DNA of 48,570 nt, from contig NZ_JAQWOO010000076.1 in assembly GCF_029245835.1 (NCBI RefSeq), forward strand, positions 1 through 48,570. Direction: 5' to 3'. The stretch's first letter is position 1, and each line of letters starts with the position of its first letter. Position numbers and translations under genes: made by a program. Of the stretch, positions 32,315 through 48,570 are shown piece by piece. A model generated the notes under the pieces. It saw only the letters and a list, made by a program, of their open reading frames with translations. It ran no database searches and was not told the origin of the DNA. This DNA comes from Algibacter sp. (GTDB lineage: Bacteria > Bacteroidota > Bacteroidia > Flavobacteriales > Flavobacteriaceae).

Positions 32315-34144
32315 CTAATAATGCAGTCCATATCCAAATTCAAATAATGGTGTTATGGAAGTATCCCAGAAATTTGGACCATATTTTGATTTGAAATCTT
32401 CTTCAGATTTAGGCCAAGAATGAGGAAGTTTGCCTGTAAAATTATAATCTCCAAACAACACCTCAGCAATCCCATCACCCTCAGATCCAGGCAACCATGC
32501 TGCAATAAAAGCATCGGACTTATCTATTTGATCTGTTACAACTAGTGGACGTCCAGAAACTAAAACAACAATGGTTTTAATGCCCATGTCTGCATAGGTA
32601 TTTATATATTTCTGATGGATCTTACTTAAGGTTAATTTATGCGTTCCATTCCCATCACCTATATCTCCAAATAGTTCCGCATAAGGTGTTTCTCCCACGA
32701 CTATAATGGCGATATCAGCATCGGCATGTTTTTCGGTGGCACTTTCGTCATATACCACTAACCCTTCTGATGTGCCTTGAATACCTTCTAATATTGTTGT
32801 AGCTCCCTTATAATTTTCTTGGGTCCCCTGCCACCATATAGTCCACCCTCCAGATTGAAGACCTGAGCTATTAGCGTGCTCTCCAACAACAACAATTTTT
32901 TTTGTTTTTTTATCAATAGGCAAACTATTGTTTTCGTTTTTAAGCAAAACTAAAGACTCTCGAACAGCTTGTCTTGCCTTGTCTCTATGATCCTGACATC
33001 CTATTTTATCAATTAGATTAGGATCTGGAAATGGATTTTCAAATAATCCCAATCTAAACTTTTGTCTTAAAATCCTTTTAACAGCATCATCAATACGTTG
33101 TTGAGAAACTTCCTTACTAACAATACCTGCTTTTAATCCTTTTTGAAAAACATCGAGATCTCCATCAACAGCCATTACCATATCCACTCCAGCGTTTATA
33201 ATAGCATTAGCACCAAATCTTGAATAGCCTTTCCAATCTGTAACTACTATCCCATCAAATCCCATCCCAATTTTAAGTGTGTCTGTAACCAATTCTTTAT
33301 GAGCATGCATGGAAAGCTCTGAAATGGAATTAAAAGATACCATAACTGAGCCTACCCCTTCTGCCACAGCATCATGATATGGTGGAAGCAGGTACTTGCT
33401 TACTTCATTCATAGTTAACGTAGTATTACCACCTTCTACTCCAAAGTCAGTTGAACCATCTCCAATAAAGTGTTTAGCCGTAGCCATGACTGTTTTTTTA
33501 TCTGACAAATTGCCTTGATGCCCTCTAACAGATGCTTTAGCTAGTTGGCTTGTTAGCGCTGTACTCTCGGAAAAGGCCTCATAAACGCGTCCCCATTTTT
33601 CATTATAAGGTATCGCAATACAAGGAGAGAAAGTCCAATTAAATCCTGTAGCCTGAGTTTCTATTGCTGTAATTGCAGCAGCCTCTTCAACCAATTTAGA
33701 GTTATAAGTTGCTCCAAGACCTATATTATGAGGAAATATGGTGGCGCCTTCAAACGTGTTTTGTCCGTGAACAGCGTCCACCGCGAATAATAAAGGAATA
33801 CCTAATCTTGTAGCTAATGCTTTATTTTGTAATGTTACAAATCTGGCTTGCCAATCGGCTGCATCTTTACCGGGAGTAGGTCCTTGAGTGTGTATTACTG
33901 ACCCAATATATTTGGAACTGATATCATCATCTATAATATCATCAAAATGTCTGACTTGCGACATTTGACCAATTTTTTCATCCCATGTCATTAACGATAA
34001 CAAGGAATCTACCTTTTGTTCGATTAAAACATCATTATCTATTTTTTTTGAAATAGCTTTTTTACATCCACTTAAAGCATAAAAACATAAAGCAACTATT
34101 AATAATCCATTGATAAATTTTAAATTTTTATAACTATTTTTCAT
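32315..34144 (-). CDS. GH3 beta-glucosidase, lipoprotein
   Basis: 609 residues from the ATG at 34144; the frame extends to a TTG at 34177. Signal peptide with lipobox ALSGC (Cys27). GH3 barrel: WDEKIGQMSQV, FAVDAVHGQN, WTFSPCIAIPYNEKWGR, ATAKHFIGDG, and nucleophile Asp ~303 in GFDGIVVTDWKGYS. The second domain has LVLLKNENNSLPI and GWTIWWQG, and the acid/base Glu would be in the VVGETPYAELFGD area. It releases glucose from beta-gluco-oligosaccharides in the periplasm or at a membrane surface. Last gene of the beta-glucan locus, 33 bp after the MFS permease. Confidence 0.92.
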   Translation of the reverse strand: MKNSYKNLKFINGLLIVALCFYALSGCKKAISKKIDNDVLIEQKVDSLLSLMTWDEKIGQMSQVRHFDDIIDDDISSKYIGSVIHTQGPTPGKDAADWQARFVTLQNKALATRLGIPLLFAVDAVHGQNTFEGATIFPHNIGLGATYNSKLVEEAAAITAIETQATGFNWTFSPCIAIPYNEKWGRVYEAFSESTALTSQLAKASVRGHQGNLSDKKTVMATAKHFIGDGSTDFGVEGGNTTLTMNEVSKYLLPPYHDAVAEGVGSVMVSFNSISELSMHAHKELVTDTLKIGMGFDGIVVTDWKGYSRFGANAIINAGVDMVMAVDGDLDVFQKGLKAGIVSKEVSQQRIDDAVKRILRQKFRLGLFENPFPDPNLIDKIGCQDHRDKARQAVRESLVLLKNENNSLPIDKKTKKIVVVGEHANSSGLQSGGWTIWWQGTQENYKGATTILEGIQGTSEGLVVYDESATEKHADADIAIIVVGETPYAELFGDIGDGNGTHKLTLSKIHQKYINTYADMGIKTIVVLVSGRPLVVTDQIDKSDAFIAAWLPGSEGDGIAEVLFGDYNFTGKLPHSWPKSEEDFKSKYGPNFWDTSITPLFEFGYGLHY

Positions 34145-34177
34145 CTTAAATCTATTCAAACGGTATCTCGTTTGCAA

Positions 34178-35692
34178 CTATTTTCTAATTAATAATTCTT
34201 CCACTTCTTCTAAACTCTTACCTTTTGTTTCAATTACGAATTTCATCACAAACAACAAGGATAAAATGGCCATTCCAGCATAAATTGCGAACGTTATTGT
34301 AGGTCCTAAATTTGTGAGTTCCCAAGGAAAAAATTGAGTTACTGTATAACTCACTAACGAATTAAAAAACCCGACTACTGATATGGCGATACCTTTTATA
34401 TTTCCCGGGAAAATTTCTGATAATAAGGTCCACATTACAGGGCCTAATGAAATGGCAAATGCCGCTACATACAAAAGAATTGCAATTAACACCAAGTTGG
34501 CGTTGATAGATATAAAATTTTTCACTTCATTACGTTTAAACTCATATAACTGATTTTCATTTAATATGGGTTCTAGATTAGCAAACAATTCATCCTGAGA
34601 TTTAAACGACATACCTTTAAGTGCTGTCATAGCTGTTTTTATTTTAGTATTTCCAACTTTATCAATAGACACATCATTTAAATCGTAAGTTGCATTATTA
34701 AACGCAAGGGTTGCCATAGACAATGCAACTGCCATAGTTGCCGTACCAATTATTAAAAGTGGTTTTCTCCCTAATCGATCTATAAGCCTAATGGCTACAA
34801 GTGTAAATACTAAATTTGTAAGACCTACTACAATGGCTTGTAAAAATGAAGAATCCGTGCTTCCGCCCGCCTGTTCAAAAATGGTTGGTGCATAGTAAAA
34901 AATAGCGTTAATGCCTGTTATTTGTTGAAAAAATGCCATCCCAAATGCGATAATAATAATGGTTCGCATTCGGCTACTAAACAATTCAGAAATTGTTCCT
35001 CGTTTTTCTTTTTTTGCAACGCCTCTTTGAATTTCTTCTATGGTTGATAACGCATAGTCTTTACCTCCAATTTTGATTAAAATCTTTTCGGCAATTTCAA
35101 CAAGATTTAATTTTTGTATTAACCACCTTGGGCTTCTTGGAACCGTAAATAGTGCTAAAAAGTAGAGAAATGCAGGTATAGCCTCAACCCCCAGCATCCA
35201 TCTCCAACTCTCGCCTTCTAAATCTTTCAAAAAGTAATTAGAAAAGTAAGCTACCGATATCCCTAAAACGATATTAAGCTGATTTAGAGATACTAAACTC
35301 CCTCTTAATTTTGGTGGCGCCACTTCTGCTATGTAGATTGGTGCAATTAATATAGCGCCTCCAATACCAATACCGCCGATAATTCTAGCAATAATAAATT
35401 CGGTATAACCTGTTGCTAAAGCCGACCATGTTGCGGAAACGGTAAATAATATTGCTGTTAAAATTAGTATTTTTTTTCGACCAAATTTATCACTTAATGG
35501 GCCTGCTGTAATATTTCCAGCCATCGCACCAAAAACAACACAGCCTACTGAAAACCCAAGCTCCCAATCAGACATATCAAAATACACTGTTATTCCGCCT
35601 ACAGCTCCTGAAATTACAGCACTGTCAAATCCTAAAAGAAAACCTCCTAATGCAACTATAAAGCTTATAAAAATAGTATATGTCTTGTTCAT
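34178..35692 (-). CDS. Sugar-porter family MFS transporter
   Basis: A 504-residue inner-membrane permease with 12 predicted helices. Sugar-porter marks: DKFGRKK after helix 2, VPRSPRWL before the central loop, DRLGRKPLL, and ETKGKSLEEVEELL at the C-terminus. It should import glucose or a small beta-glucoside by proton symport. A long hydrophilic insertion (about residues 335-395) sits between late helices, probably on the periplasmic side, and is much longer than in classic sugar porters, though similar loops occur in Bacteroidota homologues. Encoded between the GH30 and GH3 enzymes, so it probably takes up their products. Confidence 0.9.
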   Translation of the reverse strand: MNKTYTIFISFIVALGGFLLGFDSAVISGAVGGITVYFDMSDWELGFSVGCVVFGAMAGNITAGPLSDKFGRKKILILTAILFTVSATWSALATGYTEFIIARIIGGIGIGGAILIAPIYIAEVAPPKLRGSLVSLNQLNIVLGISVAYFSNYFLKDLEGESWRWMLGVEAIPAFLYFLALFTVPRSPRWLIQKLNLVEIAEKILIKIGGKDYALSTIEEIQRGVAKKEKRGTISELFSSRMRTIIIIAFGMAFFQQITGINAIFYYAPTIFEQAGGSTDSSFLQAIVVGLTNLVFTLVAIRLIDRLGRKPLLIIGTATMAVALSMATLAFNNATYDLNDVSIDKVGNTKIKTAMTALKGMSFKSQDELFANLEPILNENQLYEFKRNEVKNFISINANLVLIAILLYVAAFAISLGPVMWTLLSEIFPGNIKGIAISVVGFFNSLVSYTVTQFFPWELTNLGPTITFAIYAGMAILSLLFVMKFVIETKGKSLEEVEELLIRK

Positions 35693-35719: not shown

Positions 35720-37198
35720 TTAATATATTAAGGATTGCATAGCACGTGGTTCAATTTCTAAAAGCACCTCACTATTACCTACAATAAGTTTATAAGCTAT
35801 TGGATTATCTGTTTTATTCATTACTACAGTTATAATATTACCATCTTTATTTTTAAACGACGTACTTTCTATAGTACTTCTACTTGTGGTTGTACTTACT
35901 CGTTTAGCTCCTGAGTTAATGAATTTAGAAAAGTGACCAATATAGTAATAAGTGGGGGTATATATCAGTTCTCCTGTTTTTGTATTGGCGTGAACCGGTG
36001 CAAAACAGAAGTTTTCAACATGGTTTGGACCTCCACGTTCATCTAATAGAATATTCCAATCTGTCCAACCTACAACACCACTATTAAAATCATTTATCAT
36101 TGAATTTCCGTAGCGTTCTGCATTTGGCCAATAATGCAATTTTTCTGTATCAAAACCTTCTTGACAACCTTCCGTGAATAAAAGATTTTTAGAAGGAAAA
36201 GACTCATTAATATTTTTTAGGTTATCGTATTTTGGCAATCCTCCTGTCCACGTTTCGTACCAATGAAAACCAATACCCCAAGCATATTTTGACGCTTCTG
36301 GGTCTTCAAAAATTATATTTGCTCGGTCTGTAATTAAATCTCTATTATGATCCCAAACCACAATATTTTTATCACCTAAGCCTTCTTTTTCTAATGTTGG
36401 GCCTAAGTAATTTTTTAAAAAGTCGCGTTCCTCTTCAGCAGTATAAATACAAGATTCCCATCTTTGGACCGCCATAGGTTCATTTTGTATGGTTAACCCC
36501 CAAACTGGAACACCCTCTTCTTCATAAGCTTTAATAAATTTTACGTAATAATTAGCCCATGCTTGACGAAACTCAGGCAATAATTTTCCGCCTTGCAACA
36601 TATTATTATTACTTTTCATGAAAGCAGGAGGACTCCAAGGACTGGCATAAAAAACCAAATCGTCTTCAATTAAATTGATGGCTCTTTTTATGAATGGCAG
36701 TCTTTTTTCTTTATCTTTTTCGATAGAAAACGTCTTCAATTCAGCATCTCCTTCTTCGATATAGGTATGGCTACCTAGACCAAAATCACTACTATGAATA
36801 CTCGTTCTAATGATGTTATACCCAATACCATCTTTTCCGTATAATGCTTGTAAAAGTTTATCTTGTTGCACATCATTCAACTTAGAAAACACTTCGGATG
36901 ATGCATCTGTTATAGCCCCACCTACTCCTAAATATTCCTGAAATGTTTTTTTTGGATTTACAAAAACAGCAACATCCACCTCTAAAGGTTGTACTTTATT
37001 TTTAAACCTTTGCTCACCAGTTTTGGTTAATCTGAGTTCTGTATCCTTGGCAGTTGTATATACTTGAAGTGTTTTATTATTGTAATTTTCTACTGATGAA
37101 ATAGTCATCGCTTCAGTTTTAGACACTTCTTGAACTTTAACATCGGAACAAGAGCATAATAACACTAGTATTCCAATGATTTTATAATTTTTAGTCAT
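35720..37198 (-). CDS. GH30 glucanase, lipoprotein (probable beta-1,6-glucanase/glucosidase)
   Basis: 492 residues. Signal peptide with lipobox LLCSC (~Cys15-17). The GH30 barrel has QEYLGVGGAITDAS, the acid/base E240 in WGLTIQNEPMA and the nucleophile E343 in LLFTEGCQEG, and a C-terminal beta domain ending EPRAMQSL. GH30 members of laminarin loci remove beta-1,6-linked glucose branches. That fits a laminarin system here but cannot be proved from sequence, since GH30 also includes glucosylceramidases and xylanases. Surface or periplasmic lipoprotein, 17 bp before the GH16 stop side neighbour. Confidence 0.88.
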   Translation of the reverse strand: MTKNYKIIGILVLLCSCSDVKVQEVSKTEAMTISSVENYNNKTLQVYTTAKDTELRLTKTGEQRFKNKVQPLEVDVAVFVNPKKTFQEYLGVGGAITDASSEVFSKLNDVQQDKLLQALYGKDGIGYNIIRTSIHSSDFGLGSHTYIEEGDAELKTFSIEKDKEKRLPFIKRAINLIEDDLVFYASPWSPPAFMKSNNNMLQGGKLLPEFRQAWANYYVKFIKAYEEEGVPVWGLTIQNEPMAVQRWESCIYTAEEERDFLKNYLGPTLEKEGLGDKNIVVWDHNRDLITDRANIIFEDPEASKYAWGIGFHWYETWTGGLPKYDNLKNINESFPSKNLLFTEGCQEGFDTEKLHYWPNAERYGNSMINDFNSGVVGWTDWNILLDERGGPNHVENFCFAPVHANTKTGELIYTPTYYYIGHFSKFINSGAKRVSTTTSRSTIESTSFKNKDGNIITVVMNKTDNPIAYKLIVGNSEVLLEIEPRAMQSLIY

Positions 37199-37214: not shown

Positions 37215-38084
37215 TTATTGTCGATACTCATGCTTTACCCAGTCTACTTCCATGACCCACTCTTTACTTGTCATTGGCGAATCAGTAATTTTGGCAAAAT
37301 TTAAAATGGCAAACATAGGCTCAGGATAATTATCACCTTCTCCAACATTACGATATACCTCTTTATCATCAACACGGTAAACAAGATCACTCCCTTCCCA
37401 TTCTACTGAGTAATCATGGTAATCATTTAAGGTGGCATCAAAACCTTTGCGATAACTCCACCAGTCTCCTTTATCACATTCTCCAAGACTTTTTATAGCA
37501 CCGGTTGTAAAATGATCTTTTTGGTGATCCCCATGATGTTCAAAGATATCAATTTCACCAGACCCGGTTAAAGGCCAGCAGATATTTTCATCAGCTTCCT
37601 GCACTGGAGGTTCGTTATTTTGAGCACCTAATAGCCACCAAGCAGGGAACATACTAGGTTCTCCGTTGCTCCATAATTTCAATCTCGCGGTCCATTTACC
37701 TTTTATGAACTCTTTTCTGTTTTTAGAGGCTATTCGGCCTGCAACATATTCTGTATCGGGATGTTGATTACCGTGCTTATCTAAATTATCACAGCTTTGT
37801 TTTTCATCAATCTTAACGACCTTTAATTTTATTGTACCATCACTCACTTCTCTAGTGCCGTACTCATTATCTGGCACATAACAGTGAGTTTCGTTGTTTA
37901 CCCATATGCGCTGGTCTTGCCAATTGTCTGGATTAAAGGTATCGAATTCATCCAAGAAATCTACTTTCCAGACTTCAGCTATTTCCGTTTCATTTGAATT
38001 CTCTTTATTTTTTGTTTTACATGATAGCAGAGTTGTTCCTACTAAAATAACACTTAACAAATAGAAGTAATGTGCTTTTTTCAT
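37215..38084 (-). CDS. GH16 beta-glucanase, lipoprotein (laminarinase-like)
   Basis: 289 residues. Lipobox LLSC with Cys22. Jelly-roll GH16 domain covers the remainder: FLDEFDTFNPDNW, then MFPAWWLLG, and the catalytic GSGEIDIFEHHG with E177 (nucleophile), D179 and E182 (acid/base). This is the beta-bulge form 'EIDIxE' typical of laminarinases. It should cut the beta-1,3-glucan backbone internally. The aromatic 'YHDYSVEW' and C-terminal 'MEVDWVKH' strands are complete. It is a single-domain enzyme, in contrast to the large GH16-GH5 protein upstream. Confidence 0.9.
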   Translation of the reverse strand: MKKAHYFYLLSVILVGTTLLSCKTKNKENSNETEIAEVWKVDFLDEFDTFNPDNWQDQRIWVNNETHCYVPDNEYGTREVSDGTIKLKVVKIDEKQSCDNLDKHGNQHPDTEYVAGRIASKNRKEFIKGKWTARLKLWSNGEPSMFPAWWLLGAQNNEPPVQEADENICWPLTGSGEIDIFEHHGDHQKDHFTTGAIKSLGECDKGDWWSYRKGFDATLNDYHDYSVEWEGSDLVYRVDDKEVYRNVGEGDNYPEPMFAILNFAKITDSPMTSKEWVMEVDWVKHEYRQ

Positions 38085-38382: not shown

Positions 38383-39081
38383 TTAATTTACTCTAAATTG
38401 AAATACCGGCGAGTGCGATGCATTTCCAATTTCATCTGTTGTTATAACTTTCCAATAATATACTTGTCCGGAAGTTACTGTTACATTTAAACTATTAACA
38501 CTTGAATTTCCAGCTTCTGTAACTGGTTGATTCGTTGTATCTAGTAAAACGGTATAGGATGCGATATCATTATCAACATCAGTGGTTTCCCATTGTAACG
38601 TGATGGCACCTTCGTCTACACTTGAACCTATTTTTGGACTTACAGCATCCGCAGGAAATGGTGGATGGCTTTCTTCTGGAAGACCTGCGTTATAAAATTT
38701 CCAAGTGTCGCTATCGGCGGTCTCATTACCAATACCCTTAGATTTTACTACCCAAGAATATGGTGTACCTCTTAAAATGCGAATCAAGACTTTATTCGAA
38801 ATGGTTTTAATCTCTCTGGATGTGCCTGCATTCAAATTCGTAATGGTTAAAACATACGAACTTGCATTTGTTGCTTCTTGCCATTCAAATAAAACATCCG
38901 TTTCGGTCTCTGAAACTACTATCCCTTCATTACACTCCGTATTATTATTGGGAAATACAAGATTTGCAGCAGCTGGTATCACTGCATTAACCACAGCTCC
39001 TTGCTCATCATCACTACTACATGATATCCCAATAAATAGGATTAATAAGCATATTGGAATTATTTTTATGAACCTATTCAT
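38383..39081 (-). CDS. Lipoprotein with two fibronectin-III-like domains
   Basis: 232 residues. Lipobox IGISC (Cys21) followed by the acidic SSDDE that favours surface export in Bacteroidota. Two Ig/FN3-like beta-sandwiches: about 38-125 ('VLFEWQEATNASSYVLTI', 'GTPYSWVVKS') and 138-232 ('ITLQWETTDVDNDIASYTVLL', 'GQVYYWKVITTD'). No catalytic motif. It probably helps hold glycan or other PUL proteins at the cell surface. Its ATG overlaps the stop of the GH16-GH5 gene by one base. Confidence 0.75.
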   Translation of the reverse strand: MNRFIKIIPICLLILFIGISCSSDDEQGAVVNAVIPAAANLVFPNNNTECNEGIVVSETETDVLFEWQEATNASSYVLTITNLNAGTSREIKTISNKVLIRILRGTPYSWVVKSKGIGNETADSDTWKFYNAGLPEESHPPFPADAVSPKIGSSVDEGAITLQWETTDVDNDIASYTVLLDTTNQPVTEAGNSSVNSLNVTVTSGQVYYWKVITTDEIGNASHSPVFQFRVN

Positions 39082-42000
39082 TATTTTATAATTTTATAGT
39101 TAAATGTATTTTCTTTTGATGCTACTTTCAATACGTAAATCCCCTTAGGCATGCTAGACACATCAATTTTTAATTGATTTGTAGCAGGCTGATATGTTTT
39201 AGAAAACAATAATTTTCCTGTTAAATCATAAATTTCAACAGGTATTTCGTTTTCATAAAAATCAACCGAATTAACATGTATCGTATTATTTTTTATAGGA
39301 TTGGGAAACACAACAGGTTGACTATTAAACATTATAGTTTCGTTGTATACCCCTTGGCAATCTTTATTGGTTTTAACACTTAAATTATTTACACCTTGTG
39401 ATAGTTCCAACTCAATTTCACTTTCACTAGTAATAGTGACTTTATTATTTAAGGTTACGTAGTATGAATCGCCTCCTGCTAAGGATACGGTTATCTTTTC
39501 TGAACTACTACTTTTACCTGCTTTGGTGCCACTACTCCTACCTGATGTAGATACAGTTAATTCATCTGGCTCAACCACAACAACCGTAAAACATTGTTCA
39601 TAGTTAGAATTGCCATCAATCGTTATACAAAGCGTGTATGTTCCTGCAGATAAATCATCAAATTCAACTTCTGACGTAAATGATTTTGTTTCTGAAAAAC
39701 CATCGCCAGTTAGTGTTACTGAATAATCATAATTTTCTGAAGCCGATAAAATAATACTTCCATTATTTTGAGACCTACAGGTTTCACTTGATACGGTTAA
39801 TAAATAATTATCTGCAGCTAAAGAAAATAACTCACAACCTGTAACATCCACAATGGTATTTGCTGGCGTATTTGGACACAAATCATTATTATCTAAAATG
39901 CCATCTTTATCACTGTCGGGATAATCAAACTCCATCCAATTAAAATTGAATCCACCTGATAAAATGCGCATTCGTAATTTATGAATACCTTCTTCAATAA
40001 ATAAATTATCAGAAACGGTTTCCCAGGTTTGCCATCCGTTAGTAATTACTGTTGAAACAACTACTAATTCAGTTTCAACGTCGTTTTCATCTACTGAATA
40101 CAGCCCTATACGTCCTTCACTAAATCCTGCAACTCTAAATTTTATACCATAATCTGCCGATTCAGGAACATAAATGGAATAGTCAGCATAGTCTCCAGGA
40201 TCTGTAAATCCGAAGTTTTTACCCTCGCCTTCATCCGACGAATCTTCAATTCCCATTCCAATCATGTAATCATAGTCTTCTACTTCTATTAAGTTAGGAA
40301 TTACAACACGATCTGGAGATTCATTATTAATGGGTAAATCTGTAAATGCATTCAGTATTTTAGCTGACTGAGATTGAATTGTCGTGCCCGAGTAGCTTAC
40401 TGTAATATCATCGCTTTTAATCAAATATTTATCTAAAGTGAGGACGAAAGTTCTATTCTCTAAAGGATTTTTATCAACCGATGTTATAACTCGTTCTTCA
40501 CCATTTACATTAACTGTAAACTGACCTAAAGTCCCGTCTAAAGATGCTGCCAATAACGTTTCACTAATGGCAATTTCAATAGACTTTTCATTTTCTCCTG
40601 TGTTACCGTTTAATGCATTTAGTTCGAGTGCATCAACAGCGCCTGTTTTTTCAAATTCAATACTACTTATATTAAATGGGATATCATTACTAAAGTGCAA
40701 TTTTAGGCCATGTTTACCTTCTTCAAGTATTATATCTGAAACTTCAATGGTGCTAAATGTAGACCAACCTCCTGTTGAACTTACGGTTTGTATCGTGGTA
40801 ACTTCCTGGTTATCCAATGAAAGATAAAATTCCCCTCCATTTTCCTGTGTAGCTACCCTTACATTTGCTTTGTAAACTGCCGTTTCATCAACTTGTACTG
40901 TATATTTAATCCATTCGCCTTTATTTACAAAGCCTACGTGAAAGCCATTACTATTGATATCATCGGAATTCTTTTCAATATCAACACCATCGTTTCGGTA
41001 CGACCAACCACTGTTCCAAGCTGTAAAGTTTCCAGTTGATAGGTTGTAGTCTGCAACAACAGTATCAAAGTATGCAAAATTATTTTTCCCTAAGTCATAA
41101 TCTGCCATGTGCACAACTCCAGGGATTGCGGATGGCGTTCCATGATAAGGTATGGTTTCATCGGTTTGTACTTGTCTGACGCATGCATCTGGGACATCTT
41201 TTCTATAACTGCTATTTTCAACCAATAAATTTTCGCAAAGTTGCATCATTCCATCAAAGGTTTCTTGCGATGTTGGTCTAGGACCTTCTCCTTTCCAGTA
41301 ATCTAGTATTTTTTGATAACCCGGATTAATATCAACAGCATAAGGACTATCTATATCGCCTATTTTACGCATGGTCCACCAGGCCCATCCTATGTTATTA
41401 TTTTCAAAAAGAGATATCGCATCTGTAAACCATGTATTCGAGTTTTCGCCGGATTCTCCCATCCATAAAGGCACATTGTGTTCTTCTCGTAAGTCTAACA
41501 CCCATTGAATTGAAGCAATATCATTATAACTCCAATATTTATGAAAACTATACACTATATTATCATCCCATGCAGGTGTTAACCCACTGAAATCATTTGC
41601 GTACCAGTTACCTTCAATAAATAAAATATGATTATCTCCAACATCTCTAATACCGTCAGTAATATCTTCGTAGATCTCTCTTAAAAGCGTATTCTGAGGT
41701 CCCAAATCCCAATGGGTTTCATTTATGAGATCATAACCACCAATCCATTCATTATCTTTGTATCTATCTGCTATTCTTGTCCATAAAGCAACTAGTTTAT
41801 CTCGGTTTTCCTGACTTTCCCACAACGAAGGCTTATCAGGATCGTAATCGTTTATCTCTGAACCTCGACCTTGACCACCTGGTGTAGCATGCATATCTAA
41901 AATAACATAGATATTATGTGGTGCAGACCACTCAAGCACATCATCAATTAACTCAAAACCTGTTTCTATCCAGGTGTTTTCACCTGCAATAGGTTCGTCT

Positions 42001-44459
42001 TCAATAGGAAGCGTAAACAAATTATAATGCATAGGAATACGAATACTGTTATATCCCCAAGCAGCTAAAGAATCGACATCGCGCTTGGTAAAGTGGTTTT
42101 CTCTCCATTTGCTAAAAAAAGTCTCAGTATTTGCTTCTCCCATTAAGTCAATTAACTTTTCTTTAATCTCATGTTGAGCCCCTGCAACTCCGGAAGTGTT
42201 CATCATATAGCCTTCCATAACTTGCCAACCTCCAGGGCCTACTCCTCGCAAGAGTACTTCTTCTCCATTTGAGTTGATTATCTTTTTACCTTCGGTTTTA
42301 AGTCCTTGACCTAAGGGAGCTTGTATAGATTCATTACTTATTTCAAACCAGTTAAGATTGAATTCATTCGTGAGAGACTTAATTTTAATACGTTGGACTC
42401 CAGCCGTTAGATTAAATCCTTCTGAAACTATTGTACGCCAAGTTTGCCATCCTCCAGTTATGGGGGTTTCAACAGTAACCAGAACCTCTTCATTTTCATT
42501 TATCAACTCAAAATTGCCTTCATTCAATTGAGATGCTGCCCTTGTAAACAAATAATAAGTGCCATCATTTGGAACATTTATGAAGTATTCTAAAAAATCG
42601 CCATCATCTATGTAAGCCATATTGAGTCCGCCTCCTTGGTCAGTACAGGTTTCAATCTCCATTCCTTCCATATAAATAAAATTCTCTGCTTCAATTTTAC
42701 CTGGAATAGTAATAGGTTGAACATCTTCAGTAGTTACTACTATACTAACTTGGTCGGAATAATTTCCCCCAAAATCTTTAGCTTGAATGCTAAAGTTATA
42801 TGCTGTTGACGGATCTAGATTTTTTGGAATATACTGTAATGTTGATGTCGAGTCAATTAAGTTTTCATTTTTAAAAATATAATATTTATCTATAAACTCA
42901 TTATCGACTGATTTGTTCCAAGAAAGTTGAACATTTACGCCATCTACTTCAGCTTGCAAATTAGTTGGATTTGAAGGTGCTATTATATCGCCCTGACCAA
43001 AATTAAAATCATAGATTCTTACATAATCAACCATCATTTGTTGTGGCCAAACTCCATTGTGGTCTATCACTCCACCTAAACCTCCACCTATAGCTACATT
43101 AAGAAGTAGGTGATGAGGAACATCAAAAGGCCACTCTGCAAAGGTTTTATATTCATTGTTAAATGTAAATATAAGTTCATCATCATAATACCAATCCAAA
43201 TGATCGGGGTACCATTCTAAAGCATAGGTGTGATATGTATTAACAACATCATTAAAAACCTTACCTCCACTTTGTTGCGTGTCTTCAATATGGTTATATG
43301 CGCCAGTATGAATTGTACCAAAAACATAATTTAAATGATTCCCCCTGTGCTCCATAATATCAATTTCACCGGCATCTGGCCAATTACCATAAACCCATTC
43401 GGTAGGTAATGTCCAGATTGCTGGCCAAGTTCCCCCAGTACTTGGCAATTTGGCCTTTACTTCAATTCTACCATATAAAAAATCACCTTTGCCAGATGTA
43501 TTCATACGAGACGACGTATAATTATTACTTCCAACAGTTTCTTGTCTAGCTTCAATTATTAGGTTGCCGTTTGCAACACGAGAGTTTGCTCCATCTGTGT
43601 AATATTGAGCTTCACCATTTCCCCAACCATCACCACCGACTTGGAAATTCCATTTACTTTGATCGACCTCTGTTCCTTCAAACTCATCTGACCATACTAA
43701 TTCTCGTTTTGTTGTGGTGGTAAATACAACTAACTGATTTGAAAGAGATTGATTACCTGCCAAATCGCAGGCATGTATTTCGAAAATATACTCGGTCTCA
43801 GGAAGAAGATTATTTAGTTTAATACTATTATCGCTTGTAAATGCTATAAAATTACCGTTGTTGTATATTTTATAACCTGTAACTAATGTTGTAGCGTCGC
43901 TACTACTATTCCAGTATAACGATACTGAACGTTCATTTGAATAATTATTTACAATAGTTGGGGTTGTAGGCAAATCATTGTCAACTGGATTTGATAACTT
44001 AATTTCAAACCAGTTTAAATTAAATCCACCCGTTGTAGCCAGCAATCTAATTCTTTGTGTTCCCTCTACCAAAGTAATTTCGTCTCCTTCAATTGTTTCC
44101 CAGTTTTGCCATCCTCCTGTTGCTGAAATATTTATGCTACCTATTAAATTATCATTATTTATAACACTTAAAACACCACCACCTTCTAGACTAGAGGCAC
44201 GAACACTAATAATATAATTACCTGCTACGGGTATATTAATATCATATTCCATCCAATCTTCATTATCTATAAAGCCTACGTTTAATCCTCTATCATAGTC
44301 TATACAGTTTTCAGTTTGAACACCATTCATTTCAACAAAATCTTCGGCCTGATTGAAAATTTGACAATATGCCGGTAACTGCACAAAACTTAACAATCCC
44401 AATAATAGTAATACTTTTAAGCAACCTTGTGTTTCTTTGACGTGTAAATCCATTGTCAT
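39081..44459 (-). CDS. Secreted GH16-GH5 multidomain beta-glucanase with CBM6-like modules and T9SS tail
   Basis: 1792 residues. Order: signal peptide (1-32); CBM6-like (36-155); FN3 (165-250); GH16 (252-485; EIDIME with E365, D367, E370); FN3 (495-578); CBM6-like (585-710); GH5 (~718-1060; acid/base E914 in LINETHW, nucleophile E1002 in WMGESGE); CBM6-like (1118-1272); a beta-sandwich linker (~1280-1380); CBM6-like (1387-1512); thrombospondin-3 calcium repeat (DSDKDGILDNNDLCPN, 1514-1530); a PKD/SprB-like stretch; C-terminal type A sorting domain (~1717-1792: VVFPNPIKNN, VEIYDLTGKLL, GIYVLKV). Released by type IX secretion, it should bind and cut laminarin-type glucans. An ATG two codons in is an alternative start. 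Confidence 0.93.
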   Translation of the reverse strand: MTMDLHVKETQGCLKVLLLLGLLSFVQLPAYCQIFNQAEDFVEMNGVQTENCIDYDRGLNVGFIDNEDWMEYDINIPVAGNYIISVRASSLEGGGVLSVINNDNLIGSINISATGGWQNWETIEGDEITLVEGTQRIRLLATTGGFNLNWFEIKLSNPVDNDLPTTPTIVNNYSNERSVSLYWNSSSDATTLVTGYKIYNNGNFIAFTSDNSIKLNNLLPETEYIFEIHACDLAGNQSLSNQLVVFTTTTKRELVWSDEFEGTEVDQSKWNFQVGGDGWGNGEAQYYTDGANSRVANGNLIIEARQETVGSNNYTSSRMNTSGKGDFLYGRIEVKAKLPSTGGTWPAIWTLPTEWVYGNWPDAGEIDIMEHRGNHLNYVFGTIHTGAYNHIEDTQQSGGKVFNDVVNTYHTYALEWYPDHLDWYYDDELIFTFNNEYKTFAEWPFDVPHHLLLNVAIGGGLGGVIDHNGVWPQQMMVDYVRIYDFNFGQGDIIAPSNPTNLQAEVDGVNVQLSWNKSVDNEFIDKYYIFKNENLIDSTSTLQYIPKNLDPSTAYNFSIQAKDFGGNYSDQVSIVVTTEDVQPITIPGKIEAENFIYMEGMEIETCTDQGGGLNMAYIDDGDFLEYFINVPNDGTYYLFTRAASQLNEGNFELINENEEVLVTVETPITGGWQTWRTIVSEGFNLTAGVQRIKIKSLTNEFNLNWFEISNESIQAPLGQGLKTEGKKIINSNGEEVLLRGVGPGGWQVMEGYMMNTSGVAGAQHEIKEKLIDLMGEANTETFFSKWRENHFTKRDVDSLAAWGYNSIRIPMHYNLFTLPIEDEPIAGENTWIETGFELIDDVLEWSAPHNIYVILDMHATPGGQGRGSEINDYDPDKPSLWESQENRDKLVALWTRIADRYKDNEWIGGYDLINETHWDLGPQNTLLREIYEDITDGIRDVGDNHILFIEGNWYANDFSGLTPAWDDNIVYSFHKYWSYNDIASIQWVLDLREEHNVPLWMGESGENSNTWFTDAISLFENNNIGWAWWTMRKIGDIDSPYAVDINPGYQKILDYWKGEGPRPTSQETFDGMMQLCENLLVENSSYRKDVPDACVRQVQTDETIPYHGTPSAIPGVVHMADYDLGKNNFAYFDTVVADYNLSTGNFTAWNSGWSYRNDGVDIEKNSDDINSNGFHVGFVNKGEWIKYTVQVDETAVYKANVRVATQENGGEFYLSLDNQEVTTIQTVSSTGGWSTFSTIEVSDIILEEGKHGLKLHFSNDIPFNISSIEFEKTGAVDALELNALNGNTGENEKSIEIAISETLLAASLDGTLGQFTVNVNGEERVITSVDKNPLENRTFVLTLDKYLIKSDDITVSYSGTTIQSQSAKILNAFTDLPINNESPDRVVIPNLIEVEDYDYMIGMGIEDSSDEGEGKNFGFTDPGDYADYSIYVPESADYGIKFRVAGFSEGRIGLYSVDENDVETELVVVSTVITNGWQTWETVSDNLFIEEGIHKLRMRILSGGFNFNWMEFDYPDSDKDGILDNNDLCPNTPANTIVDVTGCELFSLAADNYLLTVSSETCRSQNNGSIILSASENYDYSVTLTGDGFSETKSFTSEVEFDDLSAGTYTLCITIDGNSNYEQCFTVVVVEPDELTVSTSGRSSGTKAGKSSSSEKITVSLAGGDSYYVTLNNKVTITSESEIELELSQGVNNLSVKTNKDCQGVYNETIMFNSQPVVFPNPIKNNTIHVNSVDFYENEIPVEIYDLTGKLLFSKTYQPATNQLKIDVSSMPKGIYVLKVASKENTFNYKIIK

Positions 44460-44893: not shown

Positions 44894-46498
44894 TTATAAT
44901 TTTGTTAAAGACCAATTATCTAGAACAATACCATCAGCACCCCATTGAGCACCCCCTGTTCTAAATAACAGATAGTATGTCCCAGCTGCTGCAATTTCAA
45001 ATTCACCAGGGTTAGCCTCTGGATCGCAACCACCAGCAACTGCCGAACCAGAATAGGTTTTTAAATTACCACAGTCCCAAGCGTTATAAGCTCTCAATAC
45101 TTGTTGGTCTCCATTGTAATCTTGACCAGCATTATCTACAGGTTGAGCAGCGCCGATATAGACTTCGCCCCAAACATCATTGATATTGGTATAAGTCATA
45201 TCCATATCAAATTGATAGGTTCCTGCCTCTAAAGTTACGGCAGTATAGACCGCCCAATGTTTCCATGGGTCCGTAGGCGTTTCTGATTCTGTAAATTTCA
45301 CTACTCCGTTTGCAATAGCCACAGCCCCTTTTCCATTATCAGTTGCATCTATGTTAATAATGGTCCAACCACTTGCATCACTAAACGTTCCATTCTGAAT
45401 AAGATTAAGAGAAGTTCCAATGGTTACATCTTTTAAAAATTCATCAGAACCATCACCATTAGTAACCGTTAATTTAACGGTATATGTACCTTCTTCAGCA
45501 TAAGTATATGTTGGGTTTTCATCAGTAGAAGTCCCTACATTATCTCCAAAGTCCCACAAATAAGATTCCCCAAGAAGAGATTGATTTGTAAAAGTTACTG
45601 TGAAATCAGATTTTGAAATTGCAAAATCTGCGATAGGAGGGAATGAAGGAGGGGTTATTTCGATACCAGGCACCAATGGCGTCATAGTAACATTATCCAA
45701 AGATAGGCCATCGTTATAGCTACTTCCACCACCTCTAATAACAAAATATACTGTACCTGTAGTCTCGAATTCAACCAATCCACCACCTTCACCAACACAA
45801 CTAATATCAATAAGTGAGCCATCGAAAGGTTCACTACCACATCCAGCCCAAGTATTCAGCCCCATACGGATGCCTCCATCAACATAATCTTGACCTGGTA
45901 CTGGAATTTCTGCCCCAATATATACCTCATACCAAGAATCTGACAATCCGTTTCCTGACACTTTCATATCAATTTGATAAGGGACACCTGCTTCAACATG
46001 CACCGGTTGATAGATGCCTTCTTGTCCCCAGCTTCCGCCAGTCCAAACGGCTTTATCTCCGGTAAAGTTTACTTCAACCCCACCTGAAATAGGTAAAATA
46101 GTCCAATTCTCACCACCATTAAATTCGCCATTTAATAAAATATTAGGTCCTTGAAAATCTTCGTTAATGACTATGGTTTGAATAGATTCAGCCTCACCTC
46201 CATCCGTAAAAATTTTAAATCTTACATCGTAATCACCCTTTCTTAAAAAAGTTTTATTAGCCTCCATACCTTCTGCAGAAGAATTATCGCCAAAATCCCA
46301 ATGTGTATACCAGGTTTCTACGTCTGTATTCGCAGTGAATATGACTTTATTTGGGTTTTCTTGATCAAATGTAAATGAAAATGCTGCGTCCTCACTTGTA
46401 GGAACATACGCTGTAAATTTATCATCATCAGCACAGCCAGTAGAAATTAAAATAATTCCCAGCATTAATAATCTGCTTAAAAATTGTATTGTTTTCAT
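44894..46498 (-). CDS. PKD-domain glycan-binding lipoprotein (SusE/F-like position)
   Basis: 534 residues. Lipobox ISTGC (Cys22) then ADDD, a surface-export-like acidic signal. PKD domain 1 (~38-112, THWDFGDNSSAEG); a carbohydrate-binding-like beta-sandwich (~115-282, LLNGEFNGGENWTI ... SLDNVTMTPL); PKD domain 2 (~290-362, YLWDFGDNVGTS); a second sandwich (~365-534, LIQNGTFSDASGWTI ... VLDNWSLTKL). The repeat unit PKD-CBM occurs twice, so it arose by tandem duplication. No catalytic residues. Just after susD, it most likely captures laminarin for the SusCD complex. Confidence 0.85.
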   Translation of the reverse strand: MKTIQFLSRLLMLGIILISTGCADDDKFTAYVPTSEDAAFSFTFDQENPNKVIFTANTDVETWYTHWDFGDNSSAEGMEANKTFLRKGDYDVRFKIFTDGGEAESIQTIVINEDFQGPNILLNGEFNGGENWTILPISGGVEVNFTGDKAVWTGGSWGQEGIYQPVHVEAGVPYQIDMKVSGNGLSDSWYEVYIGAEIPVPGQDYVDGGIRMGLNTWAGCGSEPFDGSLIDISCVGEGGGLVEFETTGTVYFVIRGGGSSYNDGLSLDNVTMTPLVPGIEITPPSFPPIADFAISKSDFTVTFTNQSLLGESYLWDFGDNVGTSTDENPTYTYAEEGTYTVKLTVTNGDGSDEFLKDVTIGTSLNLIQNGTFSDASGWTIINIDATDNGKGAVAIANGVVKFTESETPTDPWKHWAVYTAVTLEAGTYQFDMDMTYTNINDVWGEVYIGAAQPVDNAGQDYNGDQQVLRAYNAWDCGNLKTYSGSAVAGGCDPEANPGEFEIAAAGTYYLLFRTGGAQWGADGIVLDNWSLTKL

Positions 46499-46520: not shown

Positions 46521-48296
46521 TTAATCGTATAAAGGATTCTCAATCAACTTAGTGTTATTATTTATTCTTCCTTGACCAATTGGCATGTAATAATGACGCT
46601 CATCAAAATTCATTGGTAAAGCTTCGGCATCAAAAGTTTCATAAGTAAATGTTTCGTTCCCGAATCCATCAATAGACCTCAAAGTTCTAACGCCTTCAAC
46701 TTGAATACTTAAAGCCTCTGTAGCTATTCGCCATCTTCTTACATCCCAGTATCTTTGATCTTCAAAAGCTAATTCTAACTTTCTTTCATGTCTTATTCTA
46801 TCTCTTAACTCAATTCCTGACTGTGCTTGTAAACGCAGGTTTTGTTGTAAACCAGCTCTCGTTCTAATAGGTTCAATATAATCTCTTGCAGCATCCTCTA
46901 ATCCTAGTTCAAAAGCTGCTTCTGCGGCGTTTAGATATATTTCACCTAATCTAAATAAGATACAATCTTGACCAGAGTAATATTGTTTTATAAATAGAGG
47001 AGCGCCTCCATCTTGAAGATATTTTCTAACATAAAACCCTGTTTTGGTAGCATCAGGATGAACTCCTATACCATCTTTACCAATACCTGTTCCGCTCTCT
47101 GTATCTATACCATCTCCTCTATCGGTACCGTACCAAATCTCTACTCGAGATCCTTGGAACGGATCTGCATTGGTTAGTATGGTGCCTTTTAAACGCGGGT
47201 CTCTATTTTCCCATGGATTATTTTCATCATATCCAGATCCTGGTTCGCTTGGTAATAACCCTGTACTTAAAACTTCGTAACTATCTACGAGTTGCTTAGT
47301 AGGCGACATACTTGCACCCCAATCCACTCTGTAGCTGTAAGGTACATTACGTAAATCATAAGAATGTCCTTTTTCAAAAGGCAACCAAATTTTTCTAAAA
47401 ATAGTTTCATCCTCAGTTTCATCAACAAATAGATTTGCATAGTTATCTGATTTGTTCGGATACCTATCAAACAAGGTATATCCCCCTTCTGAAAGTATTT
47501 TGTTTGATGCATTTAGCGATACTTGGTAGTAGCTATCAGCATCTGAAGCAGGCACACCAACTAACCCGTTTAACTGAACCGTACTATACTTAGCGATACT
47601 AGCCGCATATAAAGCCGATCTTGATTCTAAAGATTTAGCTGCCCATCGGTCTGCTCTACCCTTTTGGTCGGTCCATCTATTAGGTAATAAATCAAAAGCC
47701 AATTGCGTATCTGAAAGAACCTGATCGTACACTTCTTTCTCTGTATTTCTTGGAGGAAAAAGTTCAGCTTCTGGTGTCGTATCAGGGTCTTGTGCTTCCA
47801 AAATAATTGGAACACCTCCATAACGCTTAGCCATCTCAAAATAACTAAAAGCTCTTAAAAAATGAAGCTCGCCTAATCTATTATTTCGTTCTTCATCAGT
47901 AAACACATCACTGCCAGCACTCTCAATGTTTTCAATGGCATAATTTATTTTCCATAAATTACCATAACCCCACCAATCCATGGGCCAAGAATTGTTTGCT
48001 GTACCCCAGATACCTGGTCTAAATTGATTGGTTGCTGGCGTCCAAGAATAGGTGCTCATAGCTAAATCTGATAACACATCACGATGTGCACCACCTCCAG
48101 CGCCCCCACCAAAATCTTTTAAATAATCCCAAGGCATGTTCTCATAAATTTGAAAGAGATAAGCATCTGTTAAAGCCTTATCACTCCATACATCGGCATC
48201 TGTTATTCTGTCTAATGGTGGTTCATTCAAAAAATCGTCACCACAGCTAAATAGTGTAAGCGTTATAAGCGCTAATATTAAATTTATATGTTTCAT
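46521..48296 (-). CDS. susD: SusD/RagB outer-membrane nutrient-binding lipoprotein
   Basis: 591 residues from the ATG at 48296; an ATG three codons earlier (48305) is also possible. Signal peptide with lipobox LFSC (Cys18), then GDDFLNEPP, as in SusD. The helical TPR core includes RNNRLGELHFLRAFSYFEMAKRYGGVPII, FRLGEIYLNAAEAAFELG and the RagB C-terminal HERKLELAFEDQRYWDVRRW. SusD caps the SusC barrel and hands oligosaccharide to it. It starts 13 bp after the susC stop. SusD itself is intact although its partner gene is broken. Confidence 0.95.
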   Translation of the reverse strand: MKHINLILALITLTLFSCGDDFLNEPPLDRITDADVWSDKALTDAYLFQIYENMPWDYLKDFGGGAGGGAHRDVLSDLAMSTYSWTPATNQFRPGIWGTANNSWPMDWWGYGNLWKINYAIENIESAGSDVFTDEERNNRLGELHFLRAFSYFEMAKRYGGVPIILEAQDPDTTPEAELFPPRNTEKEVYDQVLSDTQLAFDLLPNRWTDQKGRADRWAAKSLESRSALYAASIAKYSTVQLNGLVGVPASDADSYYQVSLNASNKILSEGGYTLFDRYPNKSDNYANLFVDETEDETIFRKIWLPFEKGHSYDLRNVPYSYRVDWGASMSPTKQLVDSYEVLSTGLLPSEPGSGYDENNPWENRDPRLKGTILTNADPFQGSRVEIWYGTDRGDGIDTESGTGIGKDGIGVHPDATKTGFYVRKYLQDGGAPLFIKQYYSGQDCILFRLGEIYLNAAEAAFELGLEDAARDYIEPIRTRAGLQQNLRLQAQSGIELRDRIRHERKLELAFEDQRYWDVRRWRIATEALSIQVEGVRTLRSIDGFGNETFTYETFDAEALPMNFDERHYYMPIGQGRINNNTKLIENPLYD

Positions 48297-48309
48297 AGTA
48301 AGCATTTTT

Positions 48310-48444
48310 TTAAAGTGTTACGTTAATACCAAAGGTTATCGATTTTGTTTGTGGGTATACCCAACCTTGATCTGAACCCTGAATTTGTGGGTCAAAATCT
48401 TCGTCAAAGTTTTTAATTACAAATAAATTATCACTAGTGTCCAC
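48310..48444 (-). pseudogene. susC: susC (TonB-dependent transporter), 3' fragment truncated by an insertion sequence
   Basis: On the minus strand this reads SDNLFVIKNFDEDFD, then QGSDQGWVYPQTKSITFGINVTL and a TAA at 48312-48310. This is the characteristic end of SusC-type barrels ('NLF...DP...YP..K...FGIN..L'). Instead of continuing into the rest of the roughly 1000-residue barrel, the frame runs into a stop codon (48447-48445) that ends a transposase. Only about 42-44 codons remain here. The rest may lie beyond the element, outside the window. A SusC without its last strands should not insert properly. Confidence 0.82.
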
Positions 48445-48570
48445 TTAAAACAAGTTGAAAACCAGTTGATTAGTATTTAGTTCTTTGACATTATTGTAAT
48501 CTGATTTCATAAGTAATTCATTTACAGGTGTTTTATCAAGTAATGATGCTGATAAAATTTGTATGATTTC
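48445..48570 (-). mobile_element. IS4-like transposase, C-terminal fragment
   Basis: The minus strand encodes 41 residues before TAA, including EIIQILSASLLDKTPVNELL and VKELNTNQLVFNLF, which I recognise as the C-terminal tail of IS4-family transposases of Flavobacteria ('LDKTP..EL...N.LF'). The window ends inside the gene. The end of the element should be the few bases right after the stop (GTGGACACT region, about 48436-48444), where the susC sequence resumes. Confidence 0.7.

Follow-up and report, generated by a model that had tools for sequence, protein, structure and literature searches.

An IS4-family element interrupts susC in a probable laminarin utilisation locus of Algibacter sp.

Inactivation of accessory genes by insertion sequences (IS) is known in bacteria. 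For the laminarin utilisation loci (PULs) of Formosa, the available part of the description (PMC6246565) names a TonB receptor, SusD, a PKD protein, GH16, GH3, GH30 and an MFS transporter. In Table 1 of PMC2266710, as far as that source is available, elements of the IS4Sa subgroup are 1,150-1,750 bp long, have 5'-CA ends with T at position 9, and produce target duplications of 8-10 bp.

The window, that is, the whole stretch of DNA analysed here, is an entire contig (C54, 48,570 bp) of a draft genome of Algibacter sp. (3.36 Mb, 100 contigs, 97% complete), and its end lies inside an IS. We found in it the gene types listed in the available text on the Formosa PULs (Table 1), with a susC-susD pair accompanied by GH16, GH30 and GH3 enzymes as in a laminarin PUL, the susC being interrupted. 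Tested as the truncated 997-aa frame, this SusC passes TIGR04056 (869.8 bits, cut-off 368.25) and has the plug and CarbopepD_reg-like domain of SusC/RagA proteins. Its gene content points to a beta-glucan utilisation locus, with laminarin as the probable substrate. Likened by gene types to the three Formosa PULs as a set, within what is available of PMC6246565, the locus differs in the interruption of susC and in its GH5 protein, which is extended at the N-terminus by a part with CBM6 and GH16. A Formosa MAG possesses an orthologous locus with SusC identity of about 70%. We also observed that the best tblastn stretch of the 1,792-aa enzyme starts only at residue 716-718 in 9/9 orthologous loci, and the GH16 part at its N-terminus may have been added in this lineage.

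Table 1. Features at the susC end of the window and in the adjoining locus (window positions).
Feature	Positions	Strand	Remarks
IS right end, 139 bp	48432..48570	-	no mismatch to complete copy C75:36222-37521; contig ends inside
Terminal inverted repeat CACTAGTGTCCACT	48432..48445		identical at both IS ends
IS transposase, last 41 codons and stop	48445..48570	-	387 aa in complete copy
9-bp target-site duplication, ATAATTTAT on minus strand	48423..48431		identical copy C94:88971-88979
susC 3' end, own stop codon	48310..48431	-	37 residues absent from the C94 part, plus duplicated target bases; resembles C-termini of 9/9 spanning orthologues
susD	46521..48305	-	PF07980; 4 bp after susC stop
PKD-domain protein	44894..46498	-	PF18911; 22 bp after susD
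1,792-aa protein: CBM6 (4 stretches), GH16, fn3, GH5, T9SS sorting tail	39081..44459	-	
232-aa protein, locus-conserved, no Pfam family	38383..39081	-	
GH16 enzyme	37215..38084	-	PF00722
GH30 enzyme	35720..37198	-	PF02055
MFS sugar transporter	34178..35692	-	PF00083
GH3 enzyme	32315..34177	-	PF00933

The first-pass annotation had read the end of the window as the 3' end of susC beside the C-terminus of a transposase on the minus strand, and both were indeed found there. It had placed the junction at 48436-48447; the actual susC/IS junction is 48431/48432 on the minus strand, and since the inverted repeat occupies 48432-48445, the first codons of the 44-aa ORF listed as the end of susC belong to the IS. 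The shared reading frame with a stop codon between the two genes, to which it had drawn attention, is present but carries little weight, as one frame in three would give it. Because the finding sits at a contig end, the missing sequence was sought on other contigs. The rest of susC, which the annotation had noted as absent from the window, is present at G000:C94:86009-88979, where C94 ends 139 bases into the left end of the same IS, and the check that the annotation had proposed, a remainder of susC beyond the element with a target-site duplication, was answered by 9 bp identical on both sides. On C94, 990 SusC codons are followed by seven codons (SLVSTKN, all but one base IS-derived) and a stop. 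The two susC pieces with one copy of the 9 bp restore a frame of 1,027 codons without a stop, in which the insertion falls at codon 991, and neither piece has any other break. The target is AT-rich, as are the targets of the other IS copies.

The sole complete copy of the IS among the search matches in the assembly lies on C75 and is 1,300 bp long, with 14-bp perfect inverted repeats and one transposase frame. Inside this copy, and at the ends of C29, C55, C56 and C57, the final 139 bases of the window are repeated with no mismatch. In the transposase we found PF01609 and PF14294; it scores 271.6 bits against NF033592 'IS4 family transposase' (cut-off 115) and carries the IS4 family DDE signature Y-(2)-R-(3)-E-(6)-K as YKQRWQVELFFKWIK at residues 288-302. 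Compared with the roughly 10-bp target duplication of the IS4 family, 9 bp were found in 5/5 paired copies, a sixth right end being unpaired. Relative to IS4Sa as given in the available part of PMC2266710, the element agrees in size, in its CA------T ends (CACTAGTGT), in its 9-bp duplication, in YREK and in its single transposase frame, and differs in that the transposase also has PF14294; a literature search on DUF4372 with IS4 found no paper. We place the element in the IS4 family; its size, ends and duplication are features of the IS4Sa subgroup. Among 299 genomes of the family, its own included, the best full-length match elsewhere is 70% identical (G062). The 9-bp pairing, NF033592, YREK and TIGR04056 together agree with the original reading of a beta-glucan PUL susC interrupted by an IS4-like element.

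Left ends of the IS form the termini of C94, C19, C37 and C38 and lie in the interior of C75 (n = 5), and right ends form the termini of C54, C29, C55, C56 and C57 and again lie within C75 (n = 6). When all left and right flanks were paired (n = 30), exactly 9 bp were shared by C94/C54, C19/C56, C38/C55, C37/C57 and the two sides of the complete C75 copy, and 0-2 bp by the other 25 pairings. With such a separation between the five cognate pairings and the rest, chance is no serious account of the result. Only the right end on C29 (1/6) has no left partner in the assembly. The C94-IS-C54 link is drawn from duplication, frame and gene order; no sequence spans the IS, and the interior of the susC copy is unseen.

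Other insertions of the same IS were observed. A GAPDH-like frame is cut between G000:C57:142-1392 (L020) and C37:137-340 (L018), whose flanks have a 9-bp duplication in common. With its 417 codons, the piece on C57 has matches to PF00044 and to PF02800, the second of which breaks off at position 110 of 158, and the 68-codon piece on C37, without a Pfam match of its own, was read by eye as the GAPDH-like remainder. This gene is one of three, the others (C82, C75) matching PF02800 in full or nearly. The IS also appears, by eye, to split a small lipoprotein-like frame of 111 + 33 open codons (L021, C55:1-2500; L017, C38:1-1600). On C29 (L019, C29:26000-28910), its right end lies one base after the stop codon of a 700-aa TonB-dependent receptor with PF00593 and PF07715 (669-2771).

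Scanning the genome collection returned 62 loci, 10 with SusC 67-74% identical and 52 at 29-36%, and the 10 were taken as the comparison set. In one of them, a Flaviramulus MAG (L066), the contig ends before the insertion site and is uninformative there, which leaves nine spanning loci; as the SusCs of L060-L063 are 97-99.9% identical to one another, these nine represent about six distinct lineages. The insertion site was uninterrupted in 9/9 (C-termini such as FVTGYNLFVIKDYKEEFDPQ), and susD came next in 9/9, followed in every case by the PKD protein, a counterpart of the 1,792-aa enzyme (from residue ~717 on, the best stretch in L061 reaching only to 1310), the 232-aa protein and GH16. Within the DNA compared, 7/9 had a match to GH30. 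On the other side, susC is immediately preceded on C94 by the gene of a 449-aa protein, and 8/10 loci have a counterpart of its C-terminal part in the same place. Gene order thus links C94 to C54 independently. No SusC orthologue was found in nine other genomes of the genus (best 37%), so that the locus is accessory and the comparison rests on other genera. Further upstream on C94, a 287-aa peptidase C39/ABC-type frame (L014:9428-10291) and the 969-aa regulator at L014:1159-4068 have their last 35 residues in common (105 identical bp), which suggests a duplication or rearrangement upstream of susC.

The SusC barrel has 22 strands, and outer-membrane barrels need the final strand for assembly. 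The solved structure 8aa4 was tried for placing the cut and set aside, as the match ended before it, and the Polaribacter irgensii orthologue was modelled instead (29 others as alignment; mean pLDDT 77.3, pTM 0.73). In this model the cut falls after residue 991, within strand 981-995, and the last strand is 1016-1026. The truncated protein, 990 native residues plus the seven from the IS with 37 C-terminal residues severed, is thus predicted to have no end of the penultimate strand and no last strand, and so no complete barrel. With the last strand gone, assembly in the outer membrane would fail, and this SusC has very likely lost its function; the annotation's own conclusion in this respect was well founded.

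Whether another SusC might take over was considered among the eight SusD matches and the SusCs of the genome. A second complete SusC as the true partner of susD, which had been offered as an alternative, was rejected, as the C94 piece fits exactly. The other SusCs nearest by score (C17, C4) are 35-36% identical over their length, and N-terminal pieces of further ones (C37, C59, C46) reach 40-42% over 250-360 residues. Eight SusD matches include that of the window. Neighbourhoods were looked at for C17, C4 and one of the two SusCs on C26. The C17 SusC adjoins raffinose-synthase-like and rhamnose-isomerase-like genes (the latter below the curated cut-off), and that on C4 a Glyco_hydro_cc enzyme, a hybrid regulator and a sulfatase. 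At G000:C42:20000-51438 (L146, L139) lies a second beta-1,3-glucan cluster, rich in GH17 and with GH30, GH16 and a GH149 phosphorylase. Four of its five GH17 matches exceed the cut-off, and an MFS-GH17 fusion is among the five; a transporter-GH17 fusion together with the same enzyme families is reported for Formosa in the available part of PMC6246565. No SusC or SusD match was found on that contig at E up to 0.001, so loss of the SusC in the window could matter. Another laminarin importer elsewhere, of the SusC or another TonB receptor kind, is possible.

Taken together, we are highly confident in the following reading: a 1,300-bp cut-and-paste IS4-family element transposed into codon 991 of the beta-glucan-locus susC and duplicated 9 bp of target, the truncated SusC would fail to assemble in the outer membrane, and the insertion would lower expression of susD and the PKD gene, perhaps also that of the enzymes, because susD begins 4 bp after susC. 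The annotation had left susD and all enzymes intact; their reading frames are whole, but with such short gaps and no outward promoter seen, expression of susD and the PKD gene is doubtful, and their transcription is likely reduced. For the enzymes reduced expression is possible. The gap before the GH16-GH5 gene, the first enzyme, is 434 bp and that before the second GH16 gene 298 bp, and within 250 nt before either gene we found no pair of TTG/TTTG and TAnnTTTG, which we took as the promoter consensus; the first enzyme may have its own promoter, or there may be internal promoters of a different type. We saw no terminator-like site in the IS, and some read-through is therefore possible. That the IS instead rewires the locus, an outward promoter at its end driving susD and the enzymes independently of the regulator, we regard as extremely unlikely. 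The repeat does contain an outward TGGACA, and both outward ends of the C75 copy are spanned by sigma-70-like matches (11/12 left, 10/12 right), but the 13 found in all differ little from chance (mean 10.2, sd 2.8), no such site was found at the susC junction (1.6 expected), and the TTG/TTTG and TAnnTTTG pair is absent from the IS and its right flank.

An assembly artefact, with the contig ends produced by false joins at a repeat and susC in truth unbroken, is barely credible. The contigs concerned do end 135-139 bases inside the repeated element, the usual break point of short-read assemblies, but a break at a repeat differs from a false join, and here each end is a unique flank beside a precise IS terminus, 5/5 left ends pair by identical 9-mers against at most 2 bp in the 25 non-cognate pairings, and an empty susC site is absent from the assembly (no copy at up to three mismatches). 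Later recombination between IS copies is likewise disfavoured by the identity of the duplications on the two sides. The absence of an empty site also bears on the reversible switch raised by the annotation, in which frequent entry and exit of the IS would alternately stop and restore laminarin uptake across the population. A perfect 9-bp duplication in a gene otherwise unbroken means that precise loss of the IS would restore the frame; however, nothing beyond this intact duplication points to such a switch, a perfect duplication is expected of any recent insertion, cut-and-paste elements seldom leave precisely, and this target is AT-rich, as the others are, so that we consider it very unlikely. 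The assembly could stand for only part of a mixed population; a transposed IS remains the preferred reading, and its ends without mismatch over the 135-139 terminal bases compared, the duplications perfect in 5/5 and the otherwise unbroken susC suggest that the insertion is probably recent.

Compared with the known inactivation of accessory genes by insertion sequences, this is the same simple insertion into a coding frame with target duplication; it is real but ordinary in kind, the target being a glycan importer. A search of titles and abstract starts for an IS-interrupted susC or laminarin PUL found none among the papers listed, and absence from print is not claimed. Matching target duplications can link gene fragments at contig ends across collapsed IS copies. 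It is highly unlikely that movement of the IS switches selfish laminarin uptake off and on at a low rate; if it did, cells carrying the insertion would save the cost of the importer and feed on sugars set free by their neighbours, and the importer would return once the IS was precisely lost. Gene content alone overstates function here, as the genome keeps the laminarin enzymes, SusD and most of SusC, yet perhaps imports no laminarin through this locus.
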